Shown piece after piece: positions 18,308 through 23,402 of a stretch of DNA of 64,000 nucleotides. The first letter of the stretch is position 1, and every line of letters starts with the position of its first letter. The position numbers were made by a program, and so were the translations under genes. Location: the NCBI GenBank assembly GCA_016839055.1, contig JAEKNX010000002.1, forward strand, positions 310,001-374,000, given 5' to 3'. The stretch comes from Spirochaetales bacterium. GTDB taxonomy: Bacteria; Spirochaetota; Spirochaetia; UBA9216. Below the pieces are notes generated by a model. The model was not told the origin of the DNA, did no database searches, and was given only the letters and a program-made list of their open reading frames with translations.

Positions 18308-19360
18308 TTACAGGCCTTCCATAGTGGTGAGAAGCTGTGACATCTCATCATCGGTTCCTATTGTGATTCTGACAAAGTCGTTGATTCCCTCTTTGTCAAA
18401 GTATCGTACAAGAATCTTTTTCTCTTTCAGGCGCATGTAAATATCTTCACCTCTTAATCCATCTTTGCGGGCAAAGACGAAATTTGCCTTTGACGGCAGG
18501 ACTGTCCACCCTAAATTGATAGCTTTAAGAGTGAAGCTATCTCTTGTTGTTATTATTTTGCTGATTACATCTTTTCTATAGGAAGAATCAAAAATAGAGA
18601 GTTCTCCGCACCTCTGGGCTATGAAATCGACGGGATATGAGTTGAAGGAGTTTTTGACGGTATTCAGCGCGCTAATGAGCTTCTTATCACCGAGAGCGTA
18701 ACCAAGTCTCAGCCCCGCAAGCGATGAGCTTTTTGAGAAGGTCCTTACAACAAGAAGATTCTCATAGTCGTTTATAAGTGATGCCGCGCTCTCGCCTCCG
18801 AAAGCAATGTAGGCTTCATCAATTGCCACGAGTCTGCCGCATTTGTAATTGTCTAGAAGATATTTTATCTTTTCAAGAGGCAGGCAGATGCCCGTAGGCG
18901 CGTTAGGATTAGGGAGAATAATACCGGTAGAGTCCCCGTCGAGATAGCTGTCGATATCGAGCGAGTAATCACCTTGAAGGGGAATCTTTTTGTACGGGAT
19001 ATTATAGAAGCCCGAATACACCGGATAAAATGAATAGGTAAATTCGGGAAAAAAAAGAGGTCCGTATTTTCCATCGAAAAAGCCGAAGAAGACGAATGAA
19101 AGAACCTCGTCCGAACCGTTTCCTATGAACACATTCTCAGGCTCAAGGCCTTCGGCACGGGCAATCTCTTGTCTCAGGTTTTTTGATGTCGGATCAGGGT
19201 AGAGTCTAAGCCGTGAGGCATCGATATCAGACAGAAAGTCCTTAATGAGGGGGGTTGGAGGGTATGGATTCTCGTTAGTATTAAGTTTGATGAAACCGCC
19301 TTCCTGCGGCTGTTCCCCGGGGGTGTAGGGGGTAAGGTTCTTCATTCTGTCTGCAAACAT
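18308..19360 (-). CDS. hisC: Histidinol-phosphate aminotransferase
   Basis: 350 residues, class I/II PLP aminotransferase. KLNTNENPYPP near residue 26, GNGSDEVL near 81, PNPNAPTG near 150, AIDEAYIAF near 173, and the PLP lysine in TFSKSSSLAGLRLGYA near 206. It converts imidazole-acetol phosphate to histidinol phosphate and often also acts on aromatic amino acids. GGAG precedes the ATG. It is separated from trpB by a strong terminator, so it is probably its own transcription unit despite the shared strand. Confidence 0.9.
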   Translation of the reverse strand: MFADRMKNLTPYTPGEQPQEGGFIKLNTNENPYPPTPLIKDFLSDIDASRLRLYPDPTSKNLRQEIARAEGLEPENVFIGNGSDEVLSFVFFGFFDGKYGPLFFPEFTYSFYPVYSGFYNIPYKKIPLQGDYSLDIDSYLDGDSTGIILPNPNAPTGICLPLEKIKYLLDNYKCGRLVAIDEAYIAFGGESAASLINDYENLLVVRTFSKSSSLAGLRLGYALGDKKLISALNTVKNSFNSYPVDFIAQRCGELSIFDSSYRKDVISKIITTRDSFTLKAINLGWTVLPSKANFVFARKDGLRGEDIYMRLKEKKILVRYFDKEGINDFVRITIGTDDEMSQLLTTMEGL

Positions 19361-19428
19361 GGTGGTTCTCCGCTTAAATATTCTGGCTTATAACAGGATA
19401 TAATATTAATTATTAAATGTCATCAGGG

Positions 19429-19462
19429 TAAAAAAATTACCCCTGGACTGACAGTCCAAGGG
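19429..19462 (-). terminator. Rho-independent terminator after trpB
   Basis: On the minus strand CCCTTGGAC, loop TGTCA and GTCCAGGGG form a 9-bp stem with one G-U pair, followed by TAA and a run of T. It begins 24 bp beyond the trpB stop and precedes hisC. Confidence 0.85.
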
Positions 19463-19485
19463 CAAACGTATAATATCAGATAATT

Positions 19486-20688
19486 TTAAATTTCTCTTAT
19501 ACCGTAGTTATCTACGATGAAGTCAATATCCTTATCGCCCCTGCCGCTTAGGTTGACGAGGATTGATTCCCTCGGTTTTTCCTTTGCGAGTTTCATAGCA
19601 TAGGCTACGGCGTGAGCGCTTTCGAGGGCCGGAATTATTCCTTCTTTTCTGCTGAGGGTGTAGAACGCATCGAGGCAGTCATCGTCCGAAGCTGTTACGT
19701 AATTTACCTTTTTAAGGTCTTTGAGCATCGAGTGCTCAGGTCCGACGCCAGGATAATCAAGGCCGCTTGCTATTGAGTAAACAGGTGACGGCTCGCCATT
19801 TTCTTCCTGCAGAAGATAGCATTTGAATCCATGAATGATTCCCGGTTTTCCGTATGTAAGAGTAGAGGCGTGATCTCCCGGTTTAAATGAGCGTCCGGCT
19901 GGTTCTACTCCGTATAAGCTGCATTCCGGATCTTCAAGAAAGGACGAGAAGATACCAATTGCATTGCTTCCTCCGCCGACACATGCAACGACATTGTCTG
20001 GAAGTTCTCCTGTCATTTCCTGGAATTGATCTTTTGCTTCAATACCAACTACCCTCTGGAAATCTCTTACCATCATAGGGAAGGGGTGAGGCCCTACAAC
20101 CGAACCGATACAGTAGATTGTAGTAACAGGATCTTTAAGATAGGCCTCAAAGGCTGAATCTACCGCTTCCTTTAGAGTTTTCAGTCCGTGTGATACCGGA
20201 ACAACTGTTGCTCCGAGCAGCTTCATTCTTATAACATTAGGATGTTCTTTTACAATATCAACCTCGCCCATGTGAATCTCACATTCAAGGCCGAAATAGG
20301 CGGCTGCGGTAGCAAGGGCAACACCATGCTGACCCGCTCCGGTCTCCGCGATGAGCTTTTTCTTTCCGAGGTATTTGGCAAGCAGCGCTTCTCCCATGCA
20401 ATGGTTCAGTTTATGAGCGCCTGTATGGTTAAGATCTTCACGTTTAAGATAAATCCGTCCTCCGAGTTCATCCGAGAGGGTCTTTGCAAAATAGACAGGG
20501 GTAGGTCTGCCCTGGAAATGCTTTCTTATACTTCTAAGTTCTGAAATGAACTGATGTGATTTACTGATTGAATAATAGGCATCTGTGATCTTGTCCATTT
20601 CTTCCTGGAGTTGGGGCGGAATAAAACTTCCTCCGTATTCTCCGAAGTTTCCGTTTGTATCAGGCAATGTCTTGAAATAATTTTCCAT
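19486..20688 (-). CDS. trpB: Tryptophan synthase beta chain
   Basis: 400 residues. [12 protein letters not shown] near residue 16, the PLP lysine in [15 protein letters not shown] (Lys93), [10 protein letters not shown] near 233 and NLSGRGDKD near the C-terminus. It joins indole and serine to give tryptophan. The sequence is of the standard TrpB1 type, which normally works with TrpA, but no trpA is adjacent; it must be elsewhere or absent. AAGGAG precedes the ATG. The gene has its own promoter with two interleaved inverted repeats and its own terminator, which points to separate regulation. Confidence 0.95.
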
Positions 20689-20702
20689 AATTGTATCTCC
20701 TT

Positions 20703-20759
20703 ACAGTAACAGGATGATAGCGTGGAATGACGTTACTGTCAATAGAAACATCATTCCAC
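20703..20759 (-). promoter_or_regulatory. trpB promoter with two interleaved inverted repeats
   Basis: Minus strand: TTGACA (20742-20737), 17-bp spacer, TATCAT (20719-20714). Repeat A is GTGGAATGA/TCATTCCAC (20759-20751 with 20730-20722), repeat B is ACAGTAAC/GTTACTGT (20739-20732 with 20710-20703). Their arms alternate A-B-A-B. On DNA they cover the -35, the spacer and the start region, as operators would. In a read-through RNA from folC they would form an H-type pseudoknot next to the trpB ribosome-binding site. Confidence 0.65.
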
Positions 20760-20776
20760 TCATGAAAAAGTATCTT

Positions 20777-22132
20777 TTAGGTGAGCAAGGCTCTGATCTC
20801 GGATACCATGTAAAATGAACCCGTTACAAAGACAGGTTTTCCGTAGGACAGGGCTCTATCGAGGGCGTCGGAAGGATCCTTCAGCAGTTCGGCTGATATT
20901 CCGGTGCTGCTAAAAATCCTGAAGACCTCATCCGGGTCGCTCTTCTTGAAAGTGCCCGGTGTTGATATGACTACCCTGTTAAAAAGGGCGCTTAGAACCT
21001 CGGCCATTCCATGGGTATCCTTGCCGTCAACAGCGCCGAAGAGGAGGGTTCCGCCCGCCTCTCCTGTCGTCTCAAAGAAGGCCTGCGCGGATAGTATCGC
21101 TGATTTTGGGGTATGAGCGCCGTCGAGCACAACCTTCGGGCTACCGGCCGGGGCGAATACCTCCATTCTGCCTGGTAGAGCAGTGCTGGGTATTCCCAGG
21201 GCCAGATTGATATCCGAAATTCCGGTTTCTTTCTTTCGTTTTAAATGTGCGAGGACAGATACTGCCATCGCCGCGTTTTTAGCCTGATAGAACCCGGCCT
21301 GTTTTAGCTTGAAACTGATTTCTTCTCCGGTTTTCAGCCTGAGCAGAGCTTCCTGCGCCCATGGGCCGGATTCCGTTTTAACTGAAGTAAGGTTAGTAAC
21401 GAGATCATCGGGAAAGAAAATATCCGAACACTTTGATGCCGCGGTCTGCCTGAATACGCTTTCCGCCTCGGGATGCTGGTCCCCCGAAAATACAGGGACA
21501 CCCTTCTTGATAATTCCGGCCTTCTCAAGGGCAATCTTCTCTATTGTGTCTCCGAGATATTCGGTATGTTCAAGTTCAATCAAGGTGAGAACTGAAGCTT
21601 CGGGAATTATCACATTTGTAGCATCCAGACGCCCTCCGAGTCCGGTCTCAAAGACTGCCCACTCACAACCGCTTTCCCTGAAGATGAGAAAAGACAGAAG
21701 GGTCAGGAGTTCGAAGGTTGTCGGCAGTCCTCCGGGAAGGTTCTCTCCGCCGGATTCGGCCTCTATTACCGACATCATCATCGAGGCTGTCGCAGTATAT
21801 AAGGTCTCGTCGAAGAAGGTGCCCGCCATGCTGATACGCTCTTTATAAGTCTCTACATGGGGCGAGGAATATAGCCCGGTTTTAATTCCGTTAGCAGCGA
21901 GAATCCCGGCGATGAAGGCCGCAGTCGAGCCCTTGCCCTTGGAGCCCGCAACGTGAATGGATTTAAAAGCATTCTGGGGGTTACCGAAGAGGGGGAGAAG
22001 CGCGTACATCCGATCCAGACGGTATTCCCGCGCAGTCAGATTCGGAGCTTTTTCGAGATTAGTGAACGACTCGAGGTGGCCGAAGGCTTCGGCAGAGGTT
22101 CTAAAGTCCACGGTCTTTAATCGCATTCCCAT
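20777..22132 (-). CDS. folC: Folylpolyglutamate synthase / dihydrofolate synthase
   Basis: About 451 residues of the Mur-ligase-like FolC family: HVAGSKGKGSTAAFIAG (P-loop) near residue 59, YSSPHVETYKERI near 88, TGLGGRLDATNVI near 155, the catalytic AKNAAMA region and LDGAHTP near 335. It adds glutamates to (dihydro)folate. It overlaps the end of hisD. Three in-frame ATGs compete (22150, 22132, 22126); 22132 is preferred because GAGGG lies 11 nt upstream, but this is uncertain. Confidence 0.9.
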   Translation of the reverse strand: MGMRLKTVDFRTSAEAFGHLESFTNLEKAPNLTAREYRLDRMYALLPLFGNPQNAFKSIHVAGSKGKGSTAAFIAGILAANGIKTGLYSSPHVETYKERISMAGTFFDETLYTATASMMMSVIEAESGGENLPGGLPTTFELLTLLSFLIFRESGCEWAVFETGLGGRLDATNVIIPEASVLTLIELEHTEYLGDTIEKIALEKAGIIKKGVPVFSGDQHPEAESVFRQTAASKCSDIFFPDDLVTNLTSVKTESGPWAQEALLRLKTGEEISFKLKQAGFYQAKNAAMAVSVLAHLKRKKETGISDINLALGIPSTALPGRMEVFAPAGSPKVVLDGAHTPKSAILSAQAFFETTGEAGGTLLFGAVDGKDTHGMAEVLSALFNRVVISTPGTFKKSDPDEVFRIFSSTGISAELLKDPSDALDRALSYGKPVFVTGSFYMVSEIRALLT

Positions 22133-23402
22133 GGGTGATGAAGCCCTCATAATCGGCGAGGGCTTTTACATGGCCCGCTGCTCCGTTGAGTCCTTCCTTC
22201 GATGCATATACGACCGATGAGTATTTGATAAAATCCCTCACAGATACCGCAGAGTAGGTCTTGGCCCCGCCGCCTGTGGGCAGTACTGCGTTAGCGCCCG
22301 TTGAATAATTTGCCAAAGAGAAGGGCGTATTCTCTCCGAGAAGGATTTCGCCGGCATTTTTTATCAGAGACAGGGTGTCGAAGGGATCCCTCGTCTGCAG
22401 CTGAAGATGCTCGGGTGCAAACTCGTTGATTATGTCCGCCGCTTCTTCGATTGAATCAGTTATTATTATGCCGCCGTAGCCCGAGAGAACGTCTTTTACG
22501 AAGGTTTTTCTCGGTTCAGGCAGCGCCTCTGTTTTTTTTCTCAGTATCTCCGCGGCAGCCTCGGCGAGTTTTTTCGAATTCGTAAGAAGAATTGCCGAGG
22601 AATCAGAGCCGTGTTCAGCCTCGATAAGAAGGTCTATCGCGGCTTTTTCAGGATCAGCTGTTTCATCGGCTAGTACAATAGCCTCAGACGGTCCGGCGGG
22701 GAGTCCCGCGTCGACCCTCGATGAGAGAAGTCTCTTCGCGGCGGCGACATATTTGCTGCCCGGGCCGGAAAGTTTTACAACCGGCCTGATTGATTCAGTG
22801 CCCAGGGCCAGGGCCGCGATGGCCTGCGCGCCGCCTACCCTGTATACCTCGGTAACTCCGCAGAGCCCTGCCGCGTACAGGCAGGCCGGATCTATTGAGC
22901 TGTCTTCATTCGGGGGAGTGACAACGACAATCCTCTCCACTCCTGCAATGAAAGCCGGAACGGCAAGCATGTACAGCATCGAGGGGAAGCTGCCGCGGCC
23001 CCTTGGAACATAGAGCCCGACTGAAGATATAGGCATTGCCTTTTCTCCGGCAAAGATGCCGGGCCGGATCTCGGAGAAGGTCATCTCTCCAGGCCTCTGG
23101 CTGTTGTGGAATTTCTTGACATTATCAATTGAATACCGAATTGCCGCCTTTACATCTTCACTGAGCAATTTTTCGGCTTTTCCGTATTCTTCCTCTGTTG
23201 CGCGAAGGGAGATTCCGGAGAGATCGACGCCGTCGAATTTTTTTGTCAGTTCTCTCAGCGCCGCGTCACCGTCTTTCTCGACCTTGGCAATTATCTCTTC
23301 AACTGATCCGGAGACCTCGGAGATGTTCAGCTCGGAACGCGAGAGGATCAGGCTGCGTTCGTCTTTACCCATGTCTTTCCATCTGCGGATATTTATCTTC
23401 AT
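22101..23402 (-). CDS. hisD: Histidinol dehydrogenase
   Basis: 433 residues. Typical segments: VPRGRGSFPSMLYMLAVPA near residue 128, YRVGGAQAIAALALGTESI near 183, VKLSGPGSKYVAAAK near 205, the zinc/catalytic stretch EAEHGSDSSA near 262, and EFAPEHLQLQ and NTPFSLANYSTGANAVLPT near the end. It oxidises histidinol to histidine in two NAD-dependent steps. AAGGAA precedes the ATG. The folC start lies inside its 3' end, so the two are coupled. Confidence 0.95.
   Translation of the reverse strand: MKINIRRWKDMGKDERSLILSRSELNISEVSGSVEEIIAKVEKDGDAALRELTKKFDGVDLSGISLRATEEEYGKAEKLLSEDVKAAIRYSIDNVKKFHNSQRPGEMTFSEIRPGIFAGEKAMPISSVGLYVPRGRGSFPSMLYMLAVPAFIAGVERIVVVTPPNEDSSIDPACLYAAGLCGVTEVYRVGGAQAIAALALGTESIRPVVKLSGPGSKYVAAAKRLLSSRVDAGLPAGPSEAIVLADETADPEKAAIDLLIEAEHGSDSSAILLTNSKKLAEAAAEILRKKTEALPEPRKTFVKDVLSGYGGIIITDSIEEAADIINEFAPEHLQLQTRDPFDTLSLIKNAGEILLGENTPFSLANYSTGANAVLPTGGGAKTYSAVSVRDFIKYSSVVYASKEGLNGAAGHVKALADYEGFITHGNAIKDRGL

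Follow-up and report, generated by a model that had tools for sequence, protein, structure and literature searches.

TrpR-family proteins have 20-bp palindromes as operators, with words that differ from lineage to lineage (PMC9413887, PMC5343134). Gammaproteobacterial TrpR operators, at trpEDCBA, trpR, aroH and mtr, are palindromes of about 20 bp that lie on the promoters of genes for tryptophan synthesis, tryptophan transport and TrpR itself and that take up several dimers per promoter, in genomes that encode a TrpR-family protein. In Chlamydia, the trpRBA operon places trpB under TrpR control for the production of tryptophan from indole. The operators of HisR (YerC), which also belongs to the TrpR family, are again 20-bp palindromes, with A/T-rich halves. 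Traits of these systems recur, or are here proposed to recur, at a short intergenic element upstream of a stand-alone trpB in a 64-kb window (the whole stretch of DNA that was analysed) from a member of the Spirochaetales; in the literature searched, which mostly lay outside the subscription journals, we found no description of a spirochaete TrpR operator. Because its motif is conserved, lies on the promoter, recurs at trp genes across the genome and co-occurs with trpR, the element is, on this comparative sequence evidence, very probably a pair of TrpR operators that repress trpB when tryptophan is high.

The trpB gene is found on the minus strand (19486-20688) and encodes a protein of 400 residues (NCBIfam TIGR00263, 528 bits against a cut-off of 392). 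Its upstream neighbour on the same strand is folC (20777-22150), assigned from its open reading frame and from synteny with two related loci (L002 and L003). As the original prediction from the letters of the window had it, this trpB stands apart from the other trp genes, between hisC and folC/hisD; a trpE-GD-CF-B-A operon on another contig (C20) carries a second trpB, which is 47% identical. The genes hisC, trpB, folC and hisD are grouped on one strand (18308-23402), which places trpB amid histidine genes.

Read on the minus strand, the gap between folC and trpB has the layout GTGGAATGA tgtttctattg ACAGTAAC g TCATTCCAC gctatcatcct GTTACTGT aaggag. It contains two perfect inverted repeats, a 9-bp A repeat with arms at 20751-20759 (GTGGAATGA) and 20722-20730 (TCATTCCAC) and an 8-bp B repeat with arms at 20732-20739 (ACAGTAAC) and 20703-20710 (GTTACTGT), in the order A-B-A-B that had been described. 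When the 89-bp gap was shuffled 20,000 times with its dinucleotides preserved, 1.4% of the shuffles had some perfect inverted repeat of 9 bp and 0.025% had two interleaved repeats of 9+8 bp; the interleaved pattern is therefore real and beyond chance expectation, in agreement with the claim that it was unlikely to be accidental. Overlooked until now was that an 18-bp palindrome, GTTTCTATTGACAGTAAC, has the same centre as the A arms (20740.5), so that arms and palindrome together form a 38-bp dyad in which 15 of 19 positions are symmetric.

This palindrome (20732-20749, minus strand) is an exact copy of the motif GTTWCT-N6-AGWAAC and constitutes the first putative operator. It lies between the A arms, the first of which is its outer flank and the second of which falls within the promoter spacer, and it contains the -35 box. 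A second, weaker putative operator, GTTACTGTAAGGAGATAC (20693-20710, minus strand), has one mismatch to the motif and a degraded right half, and it covers the start point and the Shine-Dalgarno sequence. The promoter on which both lie, TTGACA-17-TATCAT (20714-20742, minus strand; TTGACA at 20742-20737, TATCAT at 20719-20714), agrees with the consensus at 11 of 12 bases and is the sole promoter-like match nearby, as had been claimed; its resemblance to the consensus predicts that transcription starts near 20707, downstream of every arm except the second B arm. A weight matrix trained on sites of other genomes, among them a few weaker sites picked by their position at trp genes and one site identical to the first operator, ranked the two operators first and second in the window (24.1 bits and 14.6 bits, the latter with p of about 1e-6 per position). 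A two-fold symmetric element of about 20 bp overlaps the promoter, as is expected of an operator in a TrpR regulon. The compact dual operator proposed earlier was right in kind, with two putative operators, one at the -35 box and one at the start point, but not in anatomy: the units are the two motif copies rather than separate A and B dyads. The B repeat is then the matching half-sites of two putative operator copies, its first arm being the right half-site of the first operator plus two bases and its second arm, which adjoins the ribosome site, the left half-site of the second plus two bases.

We took the trpB orthologues of 60 related genomes and inspected the DNA before each; these upstream regions have the 18-bp palindrome GTTWCT-N6-AGWAAC in common. 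In seven sequences, the window included, TTGACA lies at one fixed offset inside the palindrome and is followed, after a 17-bp spacer, by TAnnnT in six and by TATATG in the seventh (L010), a relative that also repeats the placement of the second operator (GTTTCTATAAGGAGAATC). Where six upstream regions were aligned, the invariant columns are, with few exceptions, bases of the operator or the promoter. Among the matches listed from the related genomes, 52 of 79 exact motif sites fall within 6.5 kb upstream of a trpB, stretches that make up roughly 0.2% of the searched DNA. Stand-alone trpB genes have the site about 45-60 bp upstream; in trpR-trpB operons (L012, L014, L015 and L017) it precedes trpB by about 300 bp, and in trp operons by about 4.5 kb, which is the head of the operon. 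Some of the relatives' remaining sites precede trpE, and a one-mismatch site is found about 40 bp before a solo trpR in the genus mates G001, G003 and G004, among others.

Two further gene types carry the operator in relatives. Genes of the TrpB2 type, encoding about 460 residues, have it shortly before their likely start (G021, G033, G044, G045, G007, G026 and others), and this placement suggests common control of two kinds of TrpB. In several spirochaete lineages (L199, L205, L207, L208, L196-L198 and L212) it precedes a TrpX-like gene for an ABC_sub_bind lipoprotein, a probable tryptophan transporter of the regulon to judge from its family and its operator; ABC_sub_bind is the family of TrpX, a tryptophan-binding protein (PMC9382623). 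A search of the host genome for a TrpX homologue, run with no positive control, found none. A scan of contigs mainly from distant phyla found an exact site at most 700 bp upstream in 3 of 80 loci (L094, L105 and L109). Two of these, from the non-spirochaete lineages Fermentibacteria (L094) and Gastranaerophilales (L105), are trpR-trpB operons with a GTTWCT-N6-AGWAAC operator, which suggests that a whole trpR-trpB cassette may have moved between phyla together with its operator. A phage collection that was also searched gave no match.

Pattern searches of the 5.0-Mb host genome found the exact motif at four places: the first trpB operator, an abutting pair of copies 16 bp upstream of trpE in the trpE-GD-CF-B-A operon, and one copy at C3:23028. 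By our own estimate from base composition about one match is expected by chance, and a reversed-pattern control gave three, so the count alone proves nothing; it is the positions at two trp promoters that carry weight, and the pair before trpE supplies the matching sites at other trp genes that a DNA operator had been expected to show. The copy at C3:23028 (L077:3029-3046) is a perfect operator word between RecQ-like and TetR-like genes, has no evident target and may be due to chance. A one-mismatch copy at C28:9387 (L079:3388), 56 bp before a cluster of YedF, cysteine-desulfurase and SelD-like genes, is probably a chance match as well.

The outer A arms behave differently from the motif that they flank. 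They are not conserved in the trpB orthologues and are absent from the genus mates G003 and G004, in which an abutting second operator occupies the place that the A arms have in the host; the A-arm dyad occurs once in the host genome at zero mismatches, and the intergenic region has no near-identical counterpart in any of the six other relatives within the family. Quite possibly the arms are a functionless by-product, a palindrome grown outward by template-switch (quasi-palindrome) repair, a mechanism known from other bacteria. This origin is compatible with the TrpR reading and fits arms that match perfectly, have the operator at their centre and occur in one genome alone, although no sister sequence at hand shows the event. 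A function for the arms is a more tentative idea and rather unlikely: added to the TrpR sites, they would either bind a second regulator or offer contacts to further TrpR dimers, so that the whole would be a composite operator of 38 bp. In its favour, nine perfect bases sit exactly on the centre of the operator, a 9-bp perfect repeat is rare in the gap shuffles (the 1.4% given above), and TrpR of Escherichia coli is known to bind in tandem. The A arms, however, do not score as TrpR half-sites, and their dyad has no second copy in the host genome; the state of the two genus mates, with an abutting operator in place of the arms, speaks against the composite as well. We are more doubtful still about the wider proposal, in which spirochaetes at large share a TrpR regulon with an operator word of their own and the outer arms at trpB recruit extra TrpR dimers or a second regulator.

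The host encodes a TrpR-family protein at C2:121135, with a PF01371 score of 76.3 bits (cut-off 27). Its NCBIfam TIGR01321 score of 60 bits is just under the cut-off of 67.25 and well above the score of the same protein for YerC. Its match to structures of E. coli TrpR has an E value of about 3e-5, and the aligned protein shares four residues that line the tryptophan pocket of E. coli TrpR (Thr44, Arg54, Arg84 and Gly85). Among trpB-bearing genomes, the upstream site is present in 39 of 43 with trpR and in 2 of 9 lacking it, a hand tally for which Fisher's test gives p = 8e-5 with shared ancestry ignored. One genome lacking trpR (G032) has no site at either of its trpB genes.

The sites could instead belong to another tryptophan- or aromatic-responsive regulator, an alternative that we regard as improbable. 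It would account for a motif unlike the E. coli TrpR operator word and for the two draft genomes in which the site is present and trpR was not detected (G008, 91% complete, and G022, 81% complete). It would also suit the host trpR, upstream of which a weight-matrix scan found no recognisable operator, unlike the trpR genes of genus mates. What weighs against a different regulator is that trpR-trpB operons and solo trpR genes themselves have the site, that the site co-occurs with trpR, and that a 20-bp two-fold structure is typical of the TrpR family.

With TrpR as the probable binding protein and tryptophan as its putative co-repressor, a simple switch can be envisaged. When tryptophan is plentiful, a TrpR dimer would bind at the -35 box, on the strong palindrome (20732-20749), and a dimer would also occupy the weaker one over the start point (20693-20710). 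Holo-TrpR on both would shut out RNA polymerase, and its occupancy would thereby block initiation. When tryptophan is scarce, TrpR would leave and the stand-alone TrpB would be made; judged by its enzyme family, it would join indole and serine to give tryptophan.

The original prediction had also offered an RNA reading, an H-type pseudoknot formed on RNA that reads through from folC. We consider it highly improbable that such a pseudoknot, or a hairpin, in the leader of trpB controls the gene through attenuation or by masking the ribosome site. The 86-nt strand does fold better than its shuffles (z = -3.9), as any long DNA dyad would, and the second B arm does adjoin the ribosome site. Transcription from the promoter, however, should start near 20707, after three of the four arms, so its mRNA would lack the A repeat altogether, and the first B arm; folC read-through RNA would include them all, yet nothing that is conserved favours a role. 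Compensatory changes, which had been put forward as the check, are not what the trpB orthologues show, since pairing is not kept (at the same positions, 11 orthologues can form 1-7 of the 9 pairs of A and 1-3 of the 8 pairs of B). The conserved bases are operator and promoter bases, the minimum-energy fold, from a program unable to predict pseudoknots, is not the pseudoknot, and Rfam gave no match for the leader element. The locus serves as a warning case, in which tandem operators with common half-sites mimic an RNA pseudoknot.

Set beside the described systems, the putative trpB operators differ most plainly in their letters. The half-sites of the E. coli TrpR word, TGTAcTnGTnnACnAgTACA (PMC9413887), are not those of GTTWCT-N6-AGWAAC. 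Since TrpR operator words vary by lineage (PMC5343134), this mismatch counts against an operator identical to that of E. coli and not against TrpR, and it illustrates that in the TrpR family the letters of the operator can change while its two-fold, 20-bp form is kept. Also unlike the gammaproteobacterial operators, the copies at trpE abut head to tail as an 18-bp repeat, and the target in the window is a stand-alone trpB. The trpR-trpB gene order of Chlamydia trpRBA is found in the four relatives noted above (L012, L014, L015 and L017), whereas the trpB of the window has its own promoter, with trpR elsewhere. HisR has a different word, cacTTTAnnnnnnTAAAgtg, and histidine genes as targets (PMC9413887); the targets here are tryptophan genes, although hisC and hisD lie near trpB. 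One word at trp operons, stand-alone trpB, trpR and a probable tryptophan transporter offers a testable tryptophan regulon for the phylum. Judged from its sequence and its relatives, the element is most likely the expected kind of switch, turning trpB off when tryptophan is plentiful, written in a DNA word that differs from that of E. coli.
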